DNA from: Planctomycetota bacterium
GTDB lineage: Bacteria > Planctomycetota > Planctomycetia > Gemmatales > Gemmataceae
Length of the DNA: 34,862 nucleotides
Reading direction: 5' to 3'
NCBI GenBank assembly: GCA_021413475.1
Contig: JAIOQJ010000256.1
Span: 1 to 34,862 of the forward strand
Shown here: positions 1 to 18,526 of the stretch, piece after piece
Position numbering within the stretch: position 1 is the first letter of the stretch
How the letters are laid out: each line of letters starts with the position of its first letter
Notes under the pieces: model-generated
Database searches by the model: none
Told to the model about the DNA's origin: nothing
What the model saw: the letters and a program-made list of their open reading frames with translations, nothing else
Translations under genes and position numbers: made by a program

Positions 1-863
1 CGATCCCCATTGGGCAGCACGGCCATGTTTCGCTGGCGGCCCATGATTCGTTTCAACACCGGCAAGCCGCGACCGCATGGGCAGGCGGCTCCCACCTCGG
101 CATAGTCGCCAATGTCGTAACGCAGCAGCGGCATGGCAAAGTTATGCAGCGGCGTGACAACCACGCGGCCATCTTTTTCCTGGTATTGTTCAAACTCGAA
201 CATCGCCAACCAGTAGCGAGCACGAGCGTTCTCGGGTTCCACTTTGAGGATGTCGCGCGACAGGCGTTCAATGACTGTCCAGTCGGGGACCGCTTGCACC
301 ATTTCCAGCCGATGGGCCGCCAGCAGAATGGGCACCGAATCACGCACGCGCGCCGCCGCCTCGCGCAAACAGCCAACCGCTTCGTTACGAACCGTCGCGT
401 CCGGGATTCTCATGACGGTCCGAAATTTTTCGCGCGTGATCGAGTCATCCATCGCTTCGAGCGGCTCGCCGCTGGCCTGCGCTTTGGCATAGGCCGTATC
501 GCAGAGGATGCGCGACTTCAACCAAAGAAGTTGCCCCTGAAGATTGGACCATTTCTTCGTCTGTTCCGGCGTGGGTGTGCGTGTTTTTTCGATCTCTTCC
601 TTGAGGTCCTTCATCGCCTTTGCGTTGAGGATGTTCGCTTCATCAAAATGCGCGATCGATGCCTGCGCCCCCGTTTTAGGGTCCGCCGTCGACTCCAGCT
701 TCTCACGCCCTTTTTCGTAAACCTGTTCCGCCTGCTTGAGCGTGTCGGCGACCGTCGAACTGGGAATCATCCAGCGAACGAGGAAAAATCCTCCCACGAG
801 CAGCACGACGATCGAGCCGATGAGCAAGGTACGCCGGTAAGCTCGGGATTTTCGATTGGCCAT
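1..863 (-). CDS. Partial CDS (runs off the window start): membrane-anchored helical/TPR-like protein, in-frame with a phenylacetate-CoA ligase-type C-terminal segment
   Basis: Hand-read reverse-strand frame from ATG at 863-861 is open to base 1 (~287 codons). N-term MANRKSRAYRRTLLIGSIVVLLVGGFFLVRWMIP (TM anchor), then ...DILKVEPENARARYWLAMFEFEQYQEKDGRVVVTPLHNFAMPLLRYDIGDYAEVGAACPCGRGLPVLKRIMGRQRNMAVLPNGDR. GAAGAG-type RBS upstream. Not in the supplied ORF track, probably because it has no stop inside the window. Confidence 0.75.
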   Translation of the reverse strand, partial: MANRKSRAYRRTLLIGSIVVLLVGGFFLVRWMIPSSTVADTLKQAEQVYEKGREKLESTADPKTGAQASIAHFDEANILNAKAMKDLKEEIEKTRTPTPEQTKKWSNLQGQLLWLKSRILCDTAYAKAQASGEPLEAMDDSITREKFRTVMRIPDATVRNEAVGCLREAAARVRDSVPILLAAHRLEMVQAVPDWTVIERLSRDILKVEPENARARYWLAMFEFEQYQEKDGRVVVTPLHNFAMPLLRYDIGDYAEVGAACPCGRGLPVLKRIMGRQRNMAVLPNGD

Positions 864-911: not shown

Positions 912-1970
912 TTACTCACGCAATAGCGCAACTGGCAAACGCGTCGCCCCGATGACCGCGCTGGCCGGCAATTGTTCATGTCTCAAGGCTGCATCGAGTG
1001 CCGGTAGAAAACTCGCTTCAATCGCCTTCAAATCGGCCTGGTGAGCGGAATTCACACTCACCTGAACAGTTAAACTCGGCGGCGTCTGTCCCAGACGCTG
1101 ATGAATTGTCTGCAAAAACGTATTGTTTGTCGATGCGGGCAATAAGGTATAGTGCCAGTAGTAGACGGCCGTACGACCTGTCGTCCCCGTGAGAAAAACA
1201 AAACGTTGTACCTGCCTCCGTTGTTCCGGATCGAGGGAAATCAACTGGCGTGCCGACAGATCCTCCGGAGCCCCCGTCACCTCTCGAATGCAGATCTCAG
1301 GATGGTGCTTGCGATCCTCGCCGATTCGGGAGTAGGCCAAGTATAGTTGAACCACCAGGCCGCTCCCTTGCAACTGATAATCCCTTAATAGCAAATCGTC
1401 GGCCGCATAGGGTAGGCGAGCTTGCAGTTCCGTCAATTCCGGACGATCGTGACCGTTCCAAACGCGGTTGCTTCCCCCATCATTGAAGGTGAACTGTTCC
1501 GGAAGAACTCGCAGCGAAGCTGCCATGCCGGGGAACGAATCGGCACCTGCCGCTTGCAAATGAATCTTGAGTGCCACTTGCAATACGATCGTCAAGCCAA
1601 GACAGATCGCCACCGGACGCAGGCGGACGGCGAGCGACCAGGATCGCTCGCCCGTCGATTGAGTTGGCTTGGGGAGCACGGTACGCCGACCGAGCAGATA
1701 ATCGACGCCGATTAAGAGAGCGAAACCCACGGGAATCGTAAATCCCGCCGGAGCGTGATGCAGCCATCCGTTCATCCATTCCGTTCCAAAGCGAATGGCT
1801 CCGAAACTCATTAGTAATACGCGTAAAACGTTGGCCAAGACAGCGAACGGTACCGCCAGGGCGACCAGGAGAACGCGGTGCCACGTGGGCCGATCGAGCA
1901 TTAGGCCGAGCAAGACCGCAAACGCTAGAAACCCGACGAGTTGCCGTAAACCGCTGCACTCTTCACCCAC
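912..1970 (-). pseudogene. Exosortase C-terminal half (EECSGLR / ANVLRV / LHHAPAG catalytic motifs) fused to an EpsI-like domain; lacks its own N-terminus
   Basis: GTG-start ORF begins exactly at the catalytic Cys motif (MGEECSGLRQL). Conserved Arg and His motifs follow. C-terminal half (YSRIGEDRKHHPEICI...) resembles exosortase-associated EpsI. Confidence 0.75.
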
Positions 1971-2277
1971 GTTCAGATCCTGGGATCAACGTAAGCAAGG
2001 CCATGCGAGTATCGCCCGACTCCGGATCACCCGCCCGTGTCCAGGACCTTGCAAACAACCAAATGCAGATGATGGGAATGAGGTACCCGTGGCTATAGTT
2101 CTGGTCCTTACGCCACGCCAGTTCCACGGGAATGAACAAGGGGAAAAAGAGGACAAGTAAAATCAGAACGGTCACGGCAAGAACGATCGACGAGGCCGTG
2201 TTCATTCGCCATGTGCGCGAAAGACCAGCGGCAACGGGAAAGGACGAACCAGAGGGTATCACATCACGCATGGCCAC
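1963..2277 (-). pseudogene. Exosortase N-terminal fragment (first TM helices, WRKDQNYSHGYLIPIICIWLF motif)
   Basis: The D-x-NYSHG(F/Y)L-P motif is typical of exosortase N-termini. The ORF ends in a frame different from, and overlapping by 8 bp, the downstream catalytic fragment. Confidence 0.7.
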
Positions 2278-2278
2278 G

Positions 2279-2313
2279 AAAAAAAAAGCGACGGGTTTTT
2301 CGGACCCGTCGCC
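2279..2313 (-). terminator. Rho-independent terminator for the PEP-CTERM gene
   Basis: Perfect 9-bp stem GCGACGGGT/ACCCGTCGC (2288-2296 / 2304-2312) with a 7-nt loop. On the minus strand it is followed by a run of about 8 T. Confidence 0.85.
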
Positions 2314-2373: not shown

Positions 2374-3273
2374 TTAGCAGGCAACCGGAACCACTTGTTT
2401 GCGACGGCGATAAGTGTAACCGAGCAAGCCGACTACTCCAAGTCCGAGAACAGCCATGCTCGCCGGTTCCGGCACTGTTGCATTCACAGCACCATTGTTG
2501 GCATTTACGCCAAGACCGCTCAAAAAGGAGTATTGAGCCTCAATTAACGCATTCGGCCCGTTGGCCGCCACGAAAGCATCGATAGCCGCTTGAATTTGCT
2601 GTTGTGGAGTGCCACCGCCAACAGGAAGTTCGAAGCCGCTGATACCAACGGTCCACAGGAAATCAACCAGCGTTGTATCAGGGTCCACCCCCCCGATCGA
2701 ATCAACTAGGGTATCAATACCCGGGTCATAGAAGCCGTTTCCGTTGACATCGATTGCGCCGATGAAGCCACCGCCATATTGATTATTGTTATTGGCACTT
2801 GATAGCAATTGCGGCCCGCCGGAAACAGTGCTTCCATTGATATCAATGTTAAACTGCACGTCGGACAATGCGAATGGAGTTCCGTTGGACGTGAACGAAG
2901 CAGTGAAATAAACGGCATTTCCAAACTCACCCGCGAAGGCTCCCGATGGCGGCGTCACGCCCAACCATGAATTGAACGGGGTTGCAATAAAGTTGGAAAT
3001 GTTCGACGTAATGCTGGAACCGCCTGGAGAATAATAACCTGGAGTGCCGGCTGTTCCACCAGGTGCAAGAGGACTACCAGGGAATGTGGCGGCCGCTTGA
3101 AGTGCACTCACCGCATTGGCGGCAAAAGCAGCGTAGCTAGCCGGATTATACGTGGGTGCATTAGGGCTGGGACCGATTGCCGGGTAGATCGTTACCGAAA
3201 CTTGTGCCGAAGCGGCACTGGCCACCAATAGTCCCGCCACAAGTGAACCGACGAGAACGAAATGACGATTCAT
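2374..3273 (-). CDS. PEP-CTERM sorting-domain protein (secreted)
   Basis: Signal peptide MNRHFVLVGSLVAGLLVASAASAQ; C-term VPEPASMAVLGLGVVGLLGYTYRRRK = PEP motif + TM + basic tail. ATG at 3273 preferred over the 3384 start in the ORF track. Confidence 0.9.
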   Translation of the reverse strand: MNRHFVLVGSLVAGLLVASAASAQVSVTIYPAIGPSPNAPTYNPASYAAFAANAVSALQAAATFPGSPLAPGGTAGTPGYYSPGGSSITSNISNFIATPFNSWLGVTPPSGAFAGEFGNAVYFTASFTSNGTPFALSDVQFNIDINGSTVSGGPQLLSSANNNNQYGGGFIGAIDVNGNGFYDPGIDTLVDSIGGVDPDTTLVDFLWTVGISGFELPVGGGTPQQQIQAAIDAFVAANGPNALIEAQYSFLSGLGVNANNGAVNATVPEPASMAVLGLGVVGLLGYTYRRRKQVVPVAC

Positions 3274-3796
3274 GATTGAAGGGCAAGCGCCCCCTCGCAA
3301 GTCGATGATGGCGATCAGGAATGACGAGTCTTCCCACCCAGGATACACAATCTGAAAGTGCTCTGTCCAGCTTAAAGGTCGCATATTAGCACAAATTCAC
3401 GAAGTCTGCACATTCTCCCCCGCTTCGTTGATCGTCAATCTCTATCAAAAGGTTCTGACTGTAAGGCCGGCTGGCTATCAATAACTGAATTAAATTATAC
3501 CAAAATCAGGACAATTGTGCCCGAAACTCAAAATCTAATGGATTAAGAACCGGCCGAACTCGCTTATCGGCCTTGTCACTCAAACAAACGCTATTCTAAA
3601 AGCGATCTCAATTGATCGTTCAGCTCAGAGCCGATTCACGATAAAAAATAACCGTCTACTTTTTAGTATTTCAAATTCTACAGCACCAATTGCCAGTCCT
3701 TGATTGATGGTTGACTATTTCCGACTGGTTTCGCTCTACCCTCGCCGTTACGATGCAATCATTCGCAAAGAAACCCAAACGTCCTACGGTGCTGGC

Positions 3797-4655: not shown

Positions 4656-6272
4656 TTACTCCGCCAAGGGAAAACGCACCCGAAACGTCGCTCCCTTTTC
4701 CGGCGCTGAATCAATTTCCATCGTCGCTTGATGATGTTCCAGCACCACCACCACGAACGAAAGGCCCAGGCCCATGCCGGCACTGTAGCCCTCATACAGG
4801 GCGTTATCCCGCTTGGTGCTGAAGTGTGTCTGGATACAGCGTTCGCGGACTTCCTCGCTCATGCCGATGCCGTTATCCTGAACTTCAAGGATAACGTGCT
4901 CTCCATCGCGCCGGCCGCGTAGGACGACTTGACCTTTCCACGATGCCGCCTCGATCAACGCCTGCTTTCTTCGTGCGGGATCGCTGATGCTTCGGGCCGT
5001 CTCGCGAACGTGATTGCGCATCTCGAACGACGCATCGCGTGCGTTGAACAACAGATTCTCGATGGCCTGCTGGAGATGCGAAAGATCTCCTCGAATCGGC
5101 AGCGGTTCCGGAGCCGTTTCCGCGCGAACCACCAGTTTCCATTTGTCCGCGGCCATTTCCGACCAGGTTTGTTCCGTCTCGCGTAATACGTCGTTCAGGT
5201 CGATCTGGGTCATTTCCGCCCGGCTGGGATCGCGGCGGACGGTCCGCAAGATTTGCTGCAACCGCTCCGTCACTGTGCCGAGTGTCGAACGCACCTCTTC
5301 GAGCATGGTCGCCTGCTCACCTTCCGCGTCGCTTGATTGCAGGCAGCGTGAAAGGAGATCATTCGGCCGGACCAGCAGGTTCTTGATGTTGTGGGCATAC
5401 GAACCAGCCATAATGCCGATACTGGCGTAAAGCTGGGATTTCATCTCCAGATTCGTCTTCTCCGCCTCGGCGGCACGGCTCTCCTGACGGGCCGCTTCGA
5501 GCCGCTGTTCAAGGAGGTGGCGTACCAGGTCGTCCTTGGCCCTTTCCGCATCCTGAGCGCGCAGTTGCTCGGCAAGGCGAAGATTTTCCGTGTGTTCAAG
5601 GGCCTGGTTCGCTTCGAGTTCCGTGAGTTCCCGCCGGCGTTCGCGGCGTAAGAAAAAATAGATCCAGATGATCGCCAAAAGGCTTCCGCCCAGAGCGACG
5701 CCGCCGACCGCCCAGACCCATTGCTGGCGCTCCGCTTCTTCTTGCTGAGCCTTGTGAAAGGCATGCATGCGGTAGTCGCACGTCACCACCACACGCGTGC
5801 CGTCTTTGGCGCGATAATCGAGAAGTGGCTCTGAACGTACTTGCGAGCCTTGCTGTGTCCGCGCCGGACGATCCGGAGATTGCCATTCCAGGGCCGCGAT
5901 GTCGCGGCGATCGGGAAACGAGATCCGAACCGAATAGAGATCGAGAAACAAGGGCGTGCCGCTGCGGAACATCATCAGCGGTTCCATCATGGCATCGAGT
6001 TGGTCCTCGATTTCCTCCGTGCGCTCCGCACTGGGTTCCTGGAGATAATCGTCAACGAGTTCCGTGAGATTCTTGCGATTGGGCCGGCGTTCCTCGACCC
6101 ATTCACGCAAGGCGGCACGGTCGTACTTTTCGCTGAAACGCGAGCGATCGTAGAGCAAGAACGCCGCCCCGGCGACGACCCCGCCCCAAAGGATCAGCGC
6201 CGGGATGATGGCCCGCGCGTAACGCCAGAAGGCGGGTGCAGGTGTTCGAGAGTTGACAGGCAAATCCGCCAT
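4656..6272 (-). CDS. Membrane sensor histidine kinase
   Basis: N-terminal TM segments, H-box AHNIKNLL, N box (ENLLFNARDA), G boxes (VQDNGIGM, GMGLGLSFV). ATG at 6272 lies 17 nt from the upstream gene's stop. Confidence 0.9.
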   Translation of the reverse strand: MADLPVNSRTPAPAFWRYARAIIPALILWGGVVAGAAFLLYDRSRFSEKYDRAALREWVEERRPNRKNLTELVDDYLQEPSAERTEEIEDQLDAMMEPLMMFRSGTPLFLDLYSVRISFPDRRDIAALEWQSPDRPARTQQGSQVRSEPLLDYRAKDGTRVVVTCDYRMHAFHKAQQEEAERQQWVWAVGGVALGGSLLAIIWIYFFLRRERRRELTELEANQALEHTENLRLAEQLRAQDAERAKDDLVRHLLEQRLEAARQESRAAEAEKTNLEMKSQLYASIGIMAGSYAHNIKNLLVRPNDLLSRCLQSSDAEGEQATMLEEVRSTLGTVTERLQQILRTVRRDPSRAEMTQIDLNDVLRETEQTWSEMAADKWKLVVRAETAPEPLPIRGDLSHLQQAIENLLFNARDASFEMRNHVRETARSISDPARRKQALIEAASWKGQVVLRGRRDGEHVILEVQDNGIGMSEEVRERCIQTHFSTKRDNALYEGYSAGMGLGLSFVVVVLEHHQATMEIDSAPEKGATFRVRFPLAE

Positions 6273-6288
6273 GAAGGGACGCTCCGGT

Positions 6289-7770
6289 TCAAGGGGGATC
6301 GCCGGCCAACCGCCGAGCTTTTCGCGAGGGATAGGGTGCTTGCAACGGTTGCGTTTCCTTGACCCGCTTCCAGTCGCCGCCAAGCGTTCGAGTCCAAACC
6401 TCAAGATCCGCGCGTGGATTGATACGGCCCATTTCTCCAATATCCGGTTTCAGATAGACGACGTACTCCGAGCCTTCGCGGCGGTTGCCGTCCTCGTCGA
6501 AAGAGATGAGCGTTTGGGAACGGATGTTCCGTTGCAGCCTATCGGCATCGCGGACCAGGTCGCCATCGTCGGGCCGGACGGCCGCCAGTACCACGCGCAT
6601 CAATTCCGTGTAGAGCAAGACATCGTCCGTCCCCGCGGGTGCCCGTAATTGATCGTCCCAGTCGATCGGGTTTTGGTGCGCGAAGAAGACGAGTGGAATC
6701 GACAAATCACGCATATTCCAAAGCAAGGCCCCGTCGCGATATACATCGTTGATGCTGATGGCATCTCCGTTGATGGCCACGAGGTTTCGGCCAATCAGCG
6801 GCGATTCTCCCGTCAATGCGCGAAGGAATCGGCGTGCCGGTGCCGTCGAGGTCGGCAAAATGAGCAGCGATCGTTGGCTCGGCAGCGTGGGAGCCTCGGC
6901 CAGAATGTACATCGCGTACTCGGCTTCGGCGCGGTTCGCTCGATCGAACAGCCCGACGCTGTATGGAGGATGGCTGATGAACGGCTGCTCGAAGCGGCCG
7001 GCCGTCTTGGTCTTCACCGCCTGGCGAAATTTCTCCGACAGGTCGATCGAGTAAGGATCGTCTTTCCATTCGACCGGAAAAATCACGGGTGGATCGTCGT
7101 TCTTCTGCTTTGACGGAGCGCCGCTGGGACGAAGCTCCGGCTTGTGCCAGACAAAATCGACAACGGCTCGAGCCATCTGCTCGTTCGTGAAGCAGAATCG
7201 AAACGACCGTTCGGGATAAATCTGAGTGAGCTTGGCACGCTCGCTCCCCTCGCCAACTTCGTTGGCCGTGGCCGTGGTGATGAGGAATAGGGGCCGAGGG
7301 CCGCGCCATTGCCTGCGTGCGTTGAGATCGCTGGCCAGATCGCGGGCCCGATCGCTCGAACCGCCGCCAATAATCGCGAGCGGCGGCGGATTTCGCTCGG
7401 CCAGGGCGTCGATCCATTGACGCGAATTCATTTCACTCGTTTGCTTGTACCAGCGAATTCGCATTTTCCCCGGGCGATTCTTCCACGAGATCACGACCTC
7501 GGGAATCCCGGTCGTCTGTTCGAGAAATGCCCGGGAATCATCAATCGAAAGGTCCGAGTTCGCGCGAGCGGCCCGGTTGATGCCGATGACGAAACGTTCC
7601 CAGGCCGCGTACGCGGTTGTCGTGTTGAACCAGGCGATCTCAATATCGCCATCGGGAACCGATAATACGCGGCCGGCCGGCCGTGCGACGAGCCGATCGC
7701 GGAAGGCAAATACAACGACGCCACCCAAGGCCGACAAGATTAAGAAGAGGAAGAGAATTCGCTTCCGCAT
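6289..7770 (-). CDS. Membrane-anchored or periplasmic protein of unknown function, co-transcribed with the histidine kinase
   Basis: 493-aa ORF; N-term MRKRILFLFLILSALGGVVVFAF; typical coding composition; short gap to the downstream kinase. Confidence 0.75.
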   Translation of the reverse strand: MRKRILFLFLILSALGGVVVFAFRDRLVARPAGRVLSVPDGDIEIAWFNTTTAYAAWERFVIGINRAARANSDLSIDDSRAFLEQTTGIPEVVISWKNRPGKMRIRWYKQTSEMNSRQWIDALAERNPPPLAIIGGGSSDRARDLASDLNARRQWRGPRPLFLITTATANEVGEGSERAKLTQIYPERSFRFCFTNEQMARAVVDFVWHKPELRPSGAPSKQKNDDPPVIFPVEWKDDPYSIDLSEKFRQAVKTKTAGRFEQPFISHPPYSVGLFDRANRAEAEYAMYILAEAPTLPSQRSLLILPTSTAPARRFLRALTGESPLIGRNLVAINGDAISINDVYRDGALLWNMRDLSIPLVFFAHQNPIDWDDQLRAPAGTDDVLLYTELMRVVLAAVRPDDGDLVRDADRLQRNIRSQTLISFDEDGNRREGSEYVVYLKPDIGEMGRINPRADLEVWTRTLGGDWKRVKETQPLQAPYPSRKARRLAGDPP

Positions 7771-12015: not shown

Positions 12016-15000
12016 CTACCGCTGGGGCGGAGCCACATCGCGAATCAGCGCACCGCTATCCTCGCTTAATACCAACACCGCAAACCGTTCGATCGCCTGG
12101 CGTTCCGGCGTGTTGACCGAAACGTAGTCGAAGCGGCCGCGGAGATCGGTGTAGCCGTCCTTGTGGAACTTCACCGAACCGTCAGCGAGCTTGGCGTAAA
12201 CTTTCACGTAGACTTTCTGCAACGGCTTGGCCTGGTCGCTGACCACGCGGACCTGGCCGTAATTCTCGGTGAACTTCACTTCCATGGCGTTGGCATAGTA
12301 GGCTGCCGAGTGCGTCTTGCCCGCGGCCACCACTTCTACCAGCACGTTCCGCTTGACCAGATCGTCCGGCAGCGGGATGGCCATCTTGGTCTGACCGTTC
12401 GGCAGCTTGATTTCTCGCGTGAAGTTCGGCCGGATCGACGCGAACTGGCTGCCGGATTGTTGCACGAACGGATTACGGCTGAACAGAAGCTCGACGTCCA
12501 TCAGGTAATAGTTCACCTTCACGGTGTCGAGATTCTGCCAGGTCAATTGAATCGCCTTGTTATCCAGCGTGAACTCGAAGCCCGGTTCGGTCGCGGCCAG
12601 GACTTCCTGCTGCTGGGCCCGATCGAGCGGATCGACAACCTTGGCGACCTTGCCCTCGATCTCGTCGAGTTGAGCGAGAATCGACGCGAAGGTATTCTTC
12701 CAGCGATCGACCGGATAGTTCACATACTTGGCGACGATCGAGCGGGCCTTCTTCGGGTCGTCGTTGAACATTTCCAGATAGGCGGCACAGTAATCGTACT
12801 GCATCTTGGTCGCGATCTTGGCCGGGTTCACCAGGCCGAACATGTTCTCGGCCTCGGTGATGCGATCCTGGAGCAAGAGGTAGTACGTCACCGCCAGGCA
12901 ATCGGCGTCATCCAGTTGCTTCCGATATGAGAGCGTCGTCATCAACTTGTGGTACTGGTTGTTGAACGTGTCGTTGACGATCTGCCGTTTGCGGCCGAGC
13001 GAATGGGCGCGAGCGTTGACCAACGGCTTGTACTCCAGGTGCTCGTACTGATGGCGAGCGACCGGATCGATCTTCAAGAGAATCGATTCGAGCGGTCCAC
13101 CGCACTCGGCGACCAGTTGGTCCGAGTGGAGCAGGAACTGGCTGGCGGTGTTGACATCGCCATGTTGCAGGCCGTACGACCAGAGCGTCGGCTGGAAGAG
13201 ATGCCGTTCGTTGAGGAGCTTGGTCACCACTTCGAAGAAGGGGCGATCCTTCATGCGGAAGGCGATCTTTTCCAGATTCAGGGCCCGGACGTTTTCGCGA
13301 TTGAGGAACGCGAGGACGTCCTCGTCGGTGCCGTTCTGCGAGACGAAGTCCCACGAAGTGGTGTCGAGCTTGGTCGGCTTCTCGACGACTTCGAACGTGA
13401 ACGCCGGGGCGGCGGTGATGAACTGCTCGTTCTTCGCCACTTGCACCGGGAAGTGGCCGTACTTGCCTGCCTTCGGGAAGTAGAAGAGATAATCGACCGT
13501 CTGCGTGCGATACGGTTCGAGATCGAGCAGCACACTACGCGTGAACTGGCCGTTGGCGACCGGGATGGCTCCCACCGGCAGTTGCACGAGGACCGTCAGC
13601 TTCTGCCGTGACGAGGTCGGATTGGTGACCACGACCTGGCAGCCATAGACGGTGTGGACGACGAACTCCGCGGTCACAAACTTATCGTACTTTTCGCCAT
13701 TTTCTTCGCGGAAGCGGTCGCCGTTGCGATAGAAGTTCTGGCTGATCAAAATCGGGATCTGCCCGTTCTTGCCGTCGGCGGGGCGAACCTCTTCATGGAA
13801 GGCGATCATCGGGCTACCGGCCGTGAGCATCATGCGGCTGCCGTCAAACTTCACATCGTGCTTGCCGGCCTCGAAGGGGAGATCGATAACCGAGAGGGCG
13901 AACATCATCTCCGTGAAATTGCGCGAGGCGTCGGCCAGGTTCAGCGACAGGAATGGCGAATTGCGATCGTGTCGGGCGTAGTCGTACCAGAAGTCACCGG
14001 CCGGAATGAGGCCGGCAACCTGCAGTTGGATGACCTTCTTGTAGTAATTGTTCTCCGCCCACTCCTGGGTCGGGTCGAGTTTGCGGAACAGTTGGCGGAC
14101 CGCCTTGCGCTTCTCGATGGCGTCGTCGAAGTACTTCTCATCGGCGAGCACCTTGTTGAGCATCTCGCCTTCTTTACTGTCCGTATCGCTCTTGTCCTTG
14201 TCGCCGCTTTCGGTGGTCTTGCCGCTTTTCTTCGCGTTTTCCCTGCCGGGCCTGGGTGGGGATTTCGCCGACGGGCCGCCCATTCCAGCCGTCGGGACGG
14301 CCATGTCCGCGTTTGGCTTGCTTTCCGCACGGGGATCCGGTGCCTCGCCTGGAACCCTGTCTCTTCTTGCTTCTTCCAGCCGCTTGGTCTGCTCTTCGCG
14401 AATCAGGCCGACGGTCGCGTCGTCACTCTTGAGGCCGCCGGAATCGACGCCGACGTTGAAGAGGAACAATTGCCGATCGAGATTCGGCGGCAGCAGGCGC
14501 AAGAGATCGTTCAGGTGCCGGGCGGCCTTGTCTGGTTCGCCGGCGATCCGCTGGGCCAGGAGCACGCGTTCGACTGAGTTGAGTCGGCCGTATTCCCACG
14601 GCTGCATGAAGCGCGTCACTTCGTCGCCGAGCAGCCAGAAGTCGAGGAACGTCTTGTCCTTCTTGTTGCGCAGGTACGGCTTGATGACGTCAGCGAAGAA
14701 TTGCGGGTCCTTCTTGAAGAGGAAGAAGTGCAACTCGTGACACGCGAACTTCGAGTAAAGGGCGCGTTTCTCTTCCGGCTTCAGTTTCGGCCAGGTGAGG
14801 ATGAAGTTGAACTCGGCCAGGTTGGGATCCTTCGACAGGGTGGAGTAGAAGGAGTAGACTTTAGGCAGGCTGTCGTACATCTGGAACCGGCTGCCGACGA
14901 TATCGGCAATCGCGAAGGCCTGTCCCGATCCGACGACCGAAACCTGCTTCTGCTGGGTGAAATGCTTGCTGGGGTCGAGCCCGTTCTTCAATCGCAGATC

Positions 15001-18000
15001 GACGAATTCAGTCTTCTGTTCAGGGAGGGTGATGCTGCGAACGGTCGTGCTCAGCGGGTCCACGGCGACGATGTGAATCATCGAGTGGCTACCAATTTCC
15101 TTGAGCGCCACCTTGATATTGCCATCCCTGTCCGGAATCAAATTCAGCCCGATAGCCGTGGCCTCAGCGAGAAAATCGAGATTGGAGAATTCACCGGCGG
15201 CACCGGGTTGCCAGCCGTTGCTCGCATCCTGCTGGGGCTTCGGAGGCGCGAGGGGTGCTGCGGGATTGAAGCCGCCGCCTCGGCCGAACTGGTCGCCGCC
15301 GGCGGCGAGCTGCTCGCCCGTCTCGGTCGTGCGCACTGCCCACGGATTGAGCAGAATGCTGGGCCGATCGAGCATGTTGCCGGGATGTTTTTTCTGCCCA
15401 CGGCGATCGAGGACGTAGCGATACTCATCGCCGATGTTCCGGCCGGTCAGGTAGACCGACTCGGCATGACCGGGCAGCACGCCGCCCAGTTCGCTATCGC
15501 GGACTCGCGCCAGATCGGAGAAGACCGGGAACGCCGGCTGATAACGAGTCGCGAAGACATGAACGCGGGCGTACTTGGTCGCGTCACGCAGATGAATGAC
15601 GACGGCATCGGCATCGTTCTTGATCGATTGGATATGCAACGGCTTCAGGCCGGGCATCTGCATGTGCCGGGTGGTGCCGAGCACATGGCCGGTCTGAATG
15701 ACGCCATCGACGACACGGATACGAATCCGCTCACCGTTTCTTTTCTGATACAAATCGTAATCGCCGGCGGTCAGGCCGCGGAGTTCGAGTACGCCATCGT
15801 GGATCGCCAGGGCATCGAATTTGTCGGCCCGGATATTGCTGCCGAGAACTTCGAACAGTGCGAATTCCTCGTGGCTCGCTTTCTCCTGCGTGCCGAGGTA
15901 CGGCAAGGTGATCGCTTCGCCGGGTTGGGCGTGGATCAGTTGACGGAAGGTGTGCCGATCGATCGAAGGCACCCAGGTGTGCGCGGTCCCTTCCGGGCCG
16001 GTCGCGGTGACGCTGACGATTTCCAACAAGGCCCCGAGGTTCACGCGGCCCTGGGCGTCCGTCTTCAACGTGGTGTGGACCTGTTCCTTGAAGTCGCGAT
16101 GCTTGAACGCGAGTTGAATTGGCCGATCGGGCTTGGCTTCGCCGCTGCGGCCGAGGAGTTCGATCGTATAGTTCGCGCCGAATTTGGCGAAGTGGAGATC
16201 CTCGATCTTGTCGGTTCGTTCGATCTCGTTGAGGCCGAACGTGCGCGTGGCGACCAGGTCGACCAGCTTACCGCTGGCGAGGTTCCGCACCTTGGCCGTC
16301 AAGGTGATGCTGAGCGTGTGCAAGCGGGCGGGCACGCGAATCTCGTGGACCGATTCGCGATCCTCGAACAGTTTGAAGTTCGGCACATCGACGGAAGACG
16401 GGATCCCCGAGTGATCGACGGACGTGATCCGCAGGTTCACTTCTTCGAGGAGTTTCAGCGACACGGGGATATTGTTCAAGAAGAGGCCGGGCCGAATGAG
16501 AACCGGCGCGACCTTTTGCGTGATCAAGCTCTCCCGATCGACATGAATACCCGCGGCCAGACGGTACTGTTCCGGTTCATGGTTGATGAAATCGAGCGAC
16601 GCGAAATCGCCGCGGCTGATCACGATCGGCCGCCGACCGGGGGCCGCGGTGAACGGCACGATCACCAGGCCATCCTTGTCGGCCTTGTATTCGATATTGC
16701 TCAGCCAGACGGTCGCGTCGGACACGGGCTTATTCTGGTCGTCGATCACGCGGATCGACTGACCCGCCGTGCCGGTCACTACCAGCGGCCGCAACCGGCC
16801 CTTGCGGATGAGGGCCCGGCTGCTCTTGCCGCTGCCGATGAAATCGATGACGTAGATGCCCGGTTTGTTCAGCCCGGGGAAATCGAATTTTCGGGCCTGC
16901 CGGCTGAGCGGCGGGTCGTCGTACTTGATTGTTCGCTCGCTATTGGCCACCAGGCCGTCGAGATTGATGTCGGTGTCGATTTCCTGCAATCGCGAACGAT
17001 AGAGCGTGCGCGTGTTGATCTCGTAGACTTTTACCAGCATGGTCGAAACGTTCTTGACGAACAGGTCGAGAACAACTGGTTCATCGGCGGCGAAGTCGGT
17101 CTTGTTCGTGAAGGCGAAATCGATGTCGATGCGGTCCTTCAATTGGCGATAGAGTTCCGGCGGCAGTTTCGACGCCCAGGTTTCAGCATCGCCCTGGCCG
17201 AGTTCGATCTTCGTCTCCGCGAACAGGTGCCGCAGGTAAACGTCGTCGATCCAGGTCTCGTAGAACTTCGGCGATTCCGCATCGGCGAAGAAGTGCTTCA
17301 GGTAACTACGCACGAGCGGTTCATCCATGCCGATCCGCGGCAGCAGAGTCAGTGCCGTGAAGTCGGCATTCAAGTCGGCCGGGTGACGCGTGGACTCGAC
17401 CCGTTCGTTGAAGGTCCGGGCCATGTACGACTGGAAGCGGGGGAGCTTGATGTAATTGTTGAAGCGATCGAGGTTGTAGATATCCTGGGCGCGATCGAAG
17501 GCCAAGCGGTGGAACATGACGTGGGCCTTGAGCGCGTTATGCACGGGGTCGAGCCGATCGACGAACTTCTGCAGGCGTTCGAGATAGGCGAGCGTCAACT
17601 TGCGGTCGCGTTTCCAGTCGTCGTCCGCACCGGGTTGCAGTTTGGTGAGGTAAGTTCGGACGAAAGCGTTCTGATTGAGCACGCCCGGCTTCTGCTTGAC
17701 GAGTTCCTCGAGTTGATCGAGCGTCAGTTGAAAATCGATCGGATGCCCGCCGAACTCGCCGGCATGGGGCGAGTTCAGATCATCGACAATCAATTTCACC
17801 AGGTTGGCGATGTCCGGCCGTTGCAACCGCTGAAGCAGAATCCGGCGGCGCTCGTAGGAGAGGGGTTCCGCGGCCAGCCAATCGAGGGCGACGTCTTCGA
17901 AATTCTCCAGATGACGATTGGGGGCCAGCGAGTAGGCCTTGAGCCGTTCTCGGGAAATGATCGCCTGATCCAGCGACGTCGGCAGATTCGGCGCGGTACC

Positions 18001-18378
18001 GACGGTCTCTTTTTGGTGATTGTAGTTCAGGCCGAGACGGCCCTTGAGGTAGTTCAGCGTCTGTTGCGGGTTCTTGTCGTAGGCCAACAGGGCGTGCCGG
18101 GTCTGGATTTCGGTCAGCTTCGCCGTCTGCCCGTGCCGTTGGGCCCACGGCGTGATGAGGGCTTCGATCTTGTCGAATTGCTCGTTGTTCAGGAAGTGCA
18201 GGCAGTGGAAATAATAGTAGTCTTCCGTTCCCGGGATGAGTTGCTTCAGGCTCTCGGCCCGATCCTTGGCCAAGGCGAAATTCTCGATGTAGCGGATGTC
18301 TTGCCCCTGGGAAGTGGAAGTGAGTGCCAAGCCGGCCGCCAGGGTCACCCCTTGCAGCCACCCCATGAACTGTTTCAT
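12016..18378 (-). CDS. Giant secreted/periplasmic alpha-2-macroglobulin-like (MG-domain) protein
   Basis: ~2120 aa from ATG 18378 with signal peptide MKQFMGWLQGVTLAAGLALTSTSQGQ; MG2-like segment (AADEPVVLDLFVKNVSTMLVKVYEINTRTLYR...); charged low-complexity linker. No CGEQ-like thioester motif seen. Confidence 0.65.
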   Translation of the reverse strand: MKQFMGWLQGVTLAAGLALTSTSQGQDIRYIENFALAKDRAESLKQLIPGTEDYYYFHCLHFLNNEQFDKIEALITPWAQRHGQTAKLTEIQTRHALLAYDKNPQQTLNYLKGRLGLNYNHQKETVGTAPNLPTSLDQAIISRERLKAYSLAPNRHLENFEDVALDWLAAEPLSYERRRILLQRLQRPDIANLVKLIVDDLNSPHAGEFGGHPIDFQLTLDQLEELVKQKPGVLNQNAFVRTYLTKLQPGADDDWKRDRKLTLAYLERLQKFVDRLDPVHNALKAHVMFHRLAFDRAQDIYNLDRFNNYIKLPRFQSYMARTFNERVESTRHPADLNADFTALTLLPRIGMDEPLVRSYLKHFFADAESPKFYETWIDDVYLRHLFAETKIELGQGDAETWASKLPPELYRQLKDRIDIDFAFTNKTDFAADEPVVLDLFVKNVSTMLVKVYEINTRTLYRSRLQEIDTDINLDGLVANSERTIKYDDPPLSRQARKFDFPGLNKPGIYVIDFIGSGKSSRALIRKGRLRPLVVTGTAGQSIRVIDDQNKPVSDATVWLSNIEYKADKDGLVIVPFTAAPGRRPIVISRGDFASLDFINHEPEQYRLAAGIHVDRESLITQKVAPVLIRPGLFLNNIPVSLKLLEEVNLRITSVDHSGIPSSVDVPNFKLFEDRESVHEIRVPARLHTLSITLTAKVRNLASGKLVDLVATRTFGLNEIERTDKIEDLHFAKFGANYTIELLGRSGEAKPDRPIQLAFKHRDFKEQVHTTLKTDAQGRVNLGALLEIVSVTATGPEGTAHTWVPSIDRHTFRQLIHAQPGEAITLPYLGTQEKASHEEFALFEVLGSNIRADKFDALAIHDGVLELRGLTAGDYDLYQKRNGERIRIRVVDGVIQTGHVLGTTRHMQMPGLKPLHIQSIKNDADAVVIHLRDATKYARVHVFATRYQPAFPVFSDLARVRDSELGGVLPGHAESVYLTGRNIGDEYRYVLDRRGQKKHPGNMLDRPSILLNPWAVRTTETGEQLAAGGDQFGRGGGFNPAAPLAPPKPQQDASNGWQPGAAGEFSNLDFLAEATAIGLNLIPDRDGNIKVALKEIGSHSMIHIVAVDPLSTTVRSITLPEQKTEFVDLRLKNGLDPSKHFTQQKQVSVVGSGQAFAIADIVGSRFQMYDSLPKVYSFYSTLSKDPNLAEFNFILTWPKLKPEEKRALYSKFACHELHFFLFKKDPQFFADVIKPYLRNKKDKTFLDFWLLGDEVTRFMQPWEYGRLNSVERVLLAQRIAGEPDKAARHLNDLLRLLPPNLDRQLFLFNVGVDSGGLKSDDATVGLIREEQTKRLEEARRDRVPGEAPDPRAESKPNADMAVPTAGMGGPSAKSPPRPGRENAKKSGKTTESGDKDKSDTDSKEGEMLNKVLADEKYFDDAIEKRKAVRQLFRKLDPTQEWAENNYYKKVIQLQVAGLIPAGDFWYDYARHDRNSPFLSLNLADASRNFTEMMFALSVIDLPFEAGKHDVKFDGSRMMLTAGSPMIAFHEEVRPADGKNGQIPILISQNFYRNGDRFREENGEKYDKFVTAEFVVHTVYGCQVVVTNPTSSRQKLTVLVQLPVGAIPVANGQFTRSVLLDLEPYRTQTVDYLFYFPKAGKYGHFPVQVAKNEQFITAAPAFTFEVVEKPTKLDTTSWDFVSQNGTDEDVLAFLNRENVRALNLEKIAFRMKDRPFFEVVTKLLNERHLFQPTLWSYGLQHGDVNTASQFLLHSDQLVAECGGPLESILLKIDPVARHQYEHLEYKPLVNARAHSLGRKRQIVNDTFNNQYHKLMTTLSYRKQLDDADCLAVTYYLLLQDRITEAENMFGLVNPAKIATKMQYDYCAAYLEMFNDDPKKARSIVAKYVNYPVDRWKNTFASILAQLDEIEGKVAKVVDPLDRAQQQEVLAATEPGFEFTLDNKAIQLTWQNLDTVKVNYYLMDVELLFSRNPFVQQSGSQFASIRPNFTREIKLPNGQTKMAIPLPDDLVKRNVLVEVVAAGKTHSAAYYANAMEVKFTENYGQVRVVSDQAKPLQKVYVKVYAKLADGSVKFHKDGYTDLRGRFDYVSVNTPERQAIERFAVLVLSEDSGALIRDVAPPQR

Positions 18379-18526
18379 TGGTTGCCCTCGGAAAGACGTT
18401 GCCAATCGACGTGAAGTTCGCGCGAAGCCACGTGGTTCGCGGAAGAAAAAGAAAGTCGTTAGGTATAAGACGTACCAGAGAGGCCGATGGTTTGGCAAGA
18501 GTTTTATGTAACGGCGCGAATTTGGC

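Follow-up and report, generated by a model that had tools for sequence, protein, structure and literature searches.

The window analysed here comprises all 34,862 bp of contig C303, which belongs to a metagenome-assembled draft planctomycete genome (792 contigs, 6.3 Mb, contamination estimate 6.64%). It carries a planctomycete PEP-CTERM sorting locus of ordinary type, in the order PEP-CTERM protein, exosortase-EpsI, PrsT-like TPR protein, second TPR protein and secretin, of which the last two lie on another contig (C124, see below). The PEP-CTERM protein, a candidate substrate with PF07589 at its C-terminus, is encoded on the minus strand at 2374-3276. Five PEP-CTERM genes are detected in the genome with PF07589 above its cut-off, one of them being this neighbour of the exosortase. 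A strong, G+C-rich hairpin that leads into a T run (2279-2312, also given as 2288-2312, minus strand), recognized by its fold and not listed by the scan, is probably the terminator of the PEP-CTERM gene. The same hairpin comes immediately before GTG 2277, the earliest codon at which the exosortase could start, and is possibly relevant to exosortase expression. Close to these two genes lies a histidine kinase gene (HATPase_c, 4659-6296, minus strand), whose product could be a PrsK-like regulator. Elsewhere on the contig, an open frame of 2132 aa at 12019-18414 (minus strand) has no Pfam match and faces a 1237-aa open frame on the plus strand.

The exosortase gene is divided between two minus-strand reading frames, and both fragments, their different frames and an overlap of 8 bp (1963-1970) are as the earlier note described them. 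The N-terminal part corresponds to ORF 1963-2277, of which 1987-2277 is true coding sequence and the end is out of frame; it encodes 104 aa ending in MALLTLIPGSERG before the stop codon, contains the NYSHG motif and, in a profile search, matches positions 2-60 of PF09721 over 1987-2166. The C-terminal part occupies the open frame 912-1979 (coding 915-1979), which starts with DLNVGEECSGLRQL and has a GTG at 1970. It matches PF09721 positions of about 159-253 over 1695-1979 and carries PF11984 (EpsI) at its C-terminus (E=1.2e-9). The motifs ECSGLR (the C-x-G cysteine), NVLRVLL (Arg) and LHHAPAG (His) are all present in this second fragment and align with those of orthologs; the catalytic motifs and the EpsI-like C-terminus are thus intact, as had been claimed. 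Approximately 98 profile positions (about 61-158) are absent from both fragments, and with this profile gap and the broken frame no single chain carries the full-length membrane domain with its eight or more helices. Neither fragment has internal stops, and their third-position GC (0.60-0.71) falls inside the range of neighbouring genes. The closest subfamily models are XrtD and XrtW, with scores below their cut-offs, and no solved structure was matched by sequence.

Alignment to orthologs and reading in three frames place the break point at 1975-1992 (minus strand, local sequence TTGATCCCAGGATCTGAA), where about 97 residues are missing and the frame is shifted. Of the 14 orthologous ORFs aligned, one is truncated where its contig ends; in the 10 with both motifs matched, NYSHG and the cysteine are separated by 142-148 residues, compared with 48 here, so that 94-100 residues are missing. 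This spacing and the PF09721 gap bear out the proposal that some 100 residues had been lost and the frame broken. The break had also been put exactly at the Cys motif: the internal deletion and frameshift stand, but the site lies about 7 residues ahead of the cysteine, outside the motif itself. By arithmetic on the two frames, an insert that repairs the gene has a length in bases of 2 mod 3, and the gap is about 290 nt. At its end the N-terminal ORF runs out of frame into the C-terminal coding sequence, which gives rise to its last 5 or so residues (GSERG), and the 8-bp overlap is therefore a by-product of the break, meaningless by itself. The missing segment spans 13 columns that are invariant in the aligned orthologs and, by our own reading of the ortholog sequences, would carry about three membrane helices. 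A search of the assembly with the corresponding stretch of an ortholog (L028) did not find it elsewhere, the sole matches being the paralog described below and a non-significant one on contig C461. The break points could share about 10 bp at most, the junction contains GATCCCAGGATC, and the region as assembled has no long direct repeat.

Outside the genome, the C-terminal part matches best a 543-aa ORF of genome G007 (47% identity), and the N-terminal part finds its best match in the same ORF (38%). This common best match indicates that the fragments derive from one gene. Each strongly matching ortholog is encoded by one uninterrupted ORF (524-660 aa), and the split is private to this assembly among the relatives examined. 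The same junction is absent from the relatives searched with the C-terminal part, and a PF09721 search of 102 genomes of the order gave no split at this junction among the matches listed (about 140 bits or more). Four truncated exosortases were inspected (L046-L049); each either stops where its contig ends or has a frameshift at another site, and none has the junction. The frameshifts of three, L047, L048 and L049 in the planctomycete genomes G078, G079 and G026, fit errors or decay and not a split held in common. A family of homologous split exosortases sharing this junction, which the earlier note had considered, was thus not found. Set against its C-terminal counterpart, the N-terminal part has diverged somewhat further than in other ortholog pairs (ratio 0.59 here, compared with 0.78, sd 0.13, in those pairs, which are not independent of one another), and this may hint at relaxed constraint. 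The suggested search for another intact exosortase in the genome was positive: a second exosortase-EpsI of 527 aa from a TTG start lies on contig C483. Together with the five PEP-CTERM genes it indicates that the genome does possess a sorting system. At about 27%, the identity of this paralog to the exosortase studied is low, so redundancy is not evident.

The left end of C303, 1.8 kb from the exosortase gap, is itself anomalous. The frame at 3-863 (minus strand) reads as one protein, in which residues 1 to about 228 are TPR-like and residues 231-287 resemble a CoA ligase; automatic annotation would call this chimeric in-frame fusion (1-863, minus strand) a single protein. The TPR portion (177-863) is the N-terminus of a PrsT-like protein, about 228 of some 1355 aa, with 33-37% identity to proteins of about 1350 aa that adjoin exosortase-EpsI in L028, L025, L006 and other loci. 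The remaining piece (1-173, minus strand) is a fragment of 57 aa with 77% aa identity to full-length phenylacetate-CoA-ligase-like proteins of G051 and G055, planctomycetes of another family, and at the DNA level it is 71-72% similar to L034 and L035, a similarity confined to positions 4-174. This fragment is probably a foreign piece attached to the contig, and the left end of C303 is almost certainly chimeric, judging from these matches. Contig C124 supplies the other 1013 aa of the TPR protein, in a frame that lies at its right end and stays open up to the edge of the contig. That region (L058, G000:C124:16000-25185) contains the TPR remainder, another TPR gene and a secretin gene, and in L025 and L028 homologs of these TPR and secretin genes lie immediately upstream of the exosortase. 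The TPR remainder and its conserved neighbours imply that C303 and C124 belong side by side, with the ligase piece misplaced. The right end of C124 is likely the true neighbour of the left end of C303, and in the simplest reading the two contigs adjoin across about 240 nt, the ligase piece having been joined by mistake. A real rearrangement at the contig end is less likely, the two TPR parts being complementary and each stopping at a contig end.

The gap and the frame break in the exosortase gene probably reflect a local mistake in the draft metagenome assembly. This explanation is favoured because the chimeric end lies on the same contig, so short a distance away, and because the defects cluster at the contig end while conserved genes further along appear to be full length: glucose-6-phosphate dehydrogenase, alanyl-tRNA synthetase, asparagine synthase, a LarC-type nickel insertion protein and an ABC transporter all give profile matches of essentially full length. 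The gap of about 290 nt would have arisen in the poorly assembled end of C303, possibly when two contigs were merged on a short chance overlap, and the real genome would most likely carry exosortase-EpsI as one intact ORF of roughly 550 codons. Two observations count against an assembly error: the roughly 10 bp at most that the break points could share do not make evident a collapse of a repeat of assembler k-mer length, and the N-terminal part is relatively divergent. The chimeric end marks the region as unreliable, but it is no proof of an error at the exosortase gap.

A recent, real internal deletion of similar size, fixed or polymorphic and leaving a young pseudogene, is a possible but less likely alternative. 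The break is clean, and the junction sequence GATCCCAGGATC would fit a deletion that occurred possibly at a short repeat around GGATC. With an intact second exosortase-EpsI and only five PEP-CTERM genes detected, the C483 enzyme might handle the PEP-CTERM proteins. However, neither the gene nor its neighbours show further decay, the break lies near a misassembled contig end, and the low identity of the paralog leaves its redundancy in question. A real deletion would leave nothing more than a young pseudogene in a genome that keeps an intact paralog.

A new kind of split enzyme is less likely than either a fault of assembly or a gene that was broken recently. Of the three readings offered in the earlier note, the assembly error is thus the favoured one and the recent pseudogene a possible one, while the split sortase is unsupported. 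A functional two-part exosortase, with overlapping ORFs, a coupled start at GTG 1970 and assembly of the pieces in the membrane, would agree with the intact motifs and the 8-bp overlap, but it is very improbable: the segment with its 13 invariant columns is gone altogether and not merely separated, no ortholog of the relatives searched has the same split, truncated exosortases elsewhere break at other sites or at a contig end, and the overlap is accounted for by out-of-frame reading. The activity proposed for exosortases is cleavage of PEP-CTERM tails, in which a conserved Cys acts together with Arg and His (PMC1569441). The pieces would not be expected to work here, with helices and invariant columns missing, and a minimal exosortase acting as two coupled polypeptides without the central membrane segment of about 100 residues is scarcely credible; a working enzyme of this kind would be a surprise, and nothing supports one. 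A join at the break point of fragments from two organisms or genes, suggested by the foreign piece at the contig end and the relatively divergent N-terminal part, is highly unlikely given the common best match of the fragments and their complementary extents.

The case illustrates how, near a chimeric end, a contig of a draft metagenome can take on the look of an unusual split enzyme. In their domains, motifs and order the fragments resemble the exosortase-EpsI fusions (PF09721 and PF11984; NCBIfam TIGR02602/TIGR02914), and the neighbours, a PEP-CTERM protein and a PrsT-like TPR protein, are also typical of PEP-CTERM loci; unlike in these fusions, about 97 residues are missing between NYSHG and the cysteine, with a break in the frame. 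Metagenome-assembled genomes are documented to contain local assembly errors and chimeras (PMC7111523). Judged from the contig sequence, C303 resembles such cases: here too there are joins without support in relatives, a foreign piece at a contig end and a gene broken nearby.
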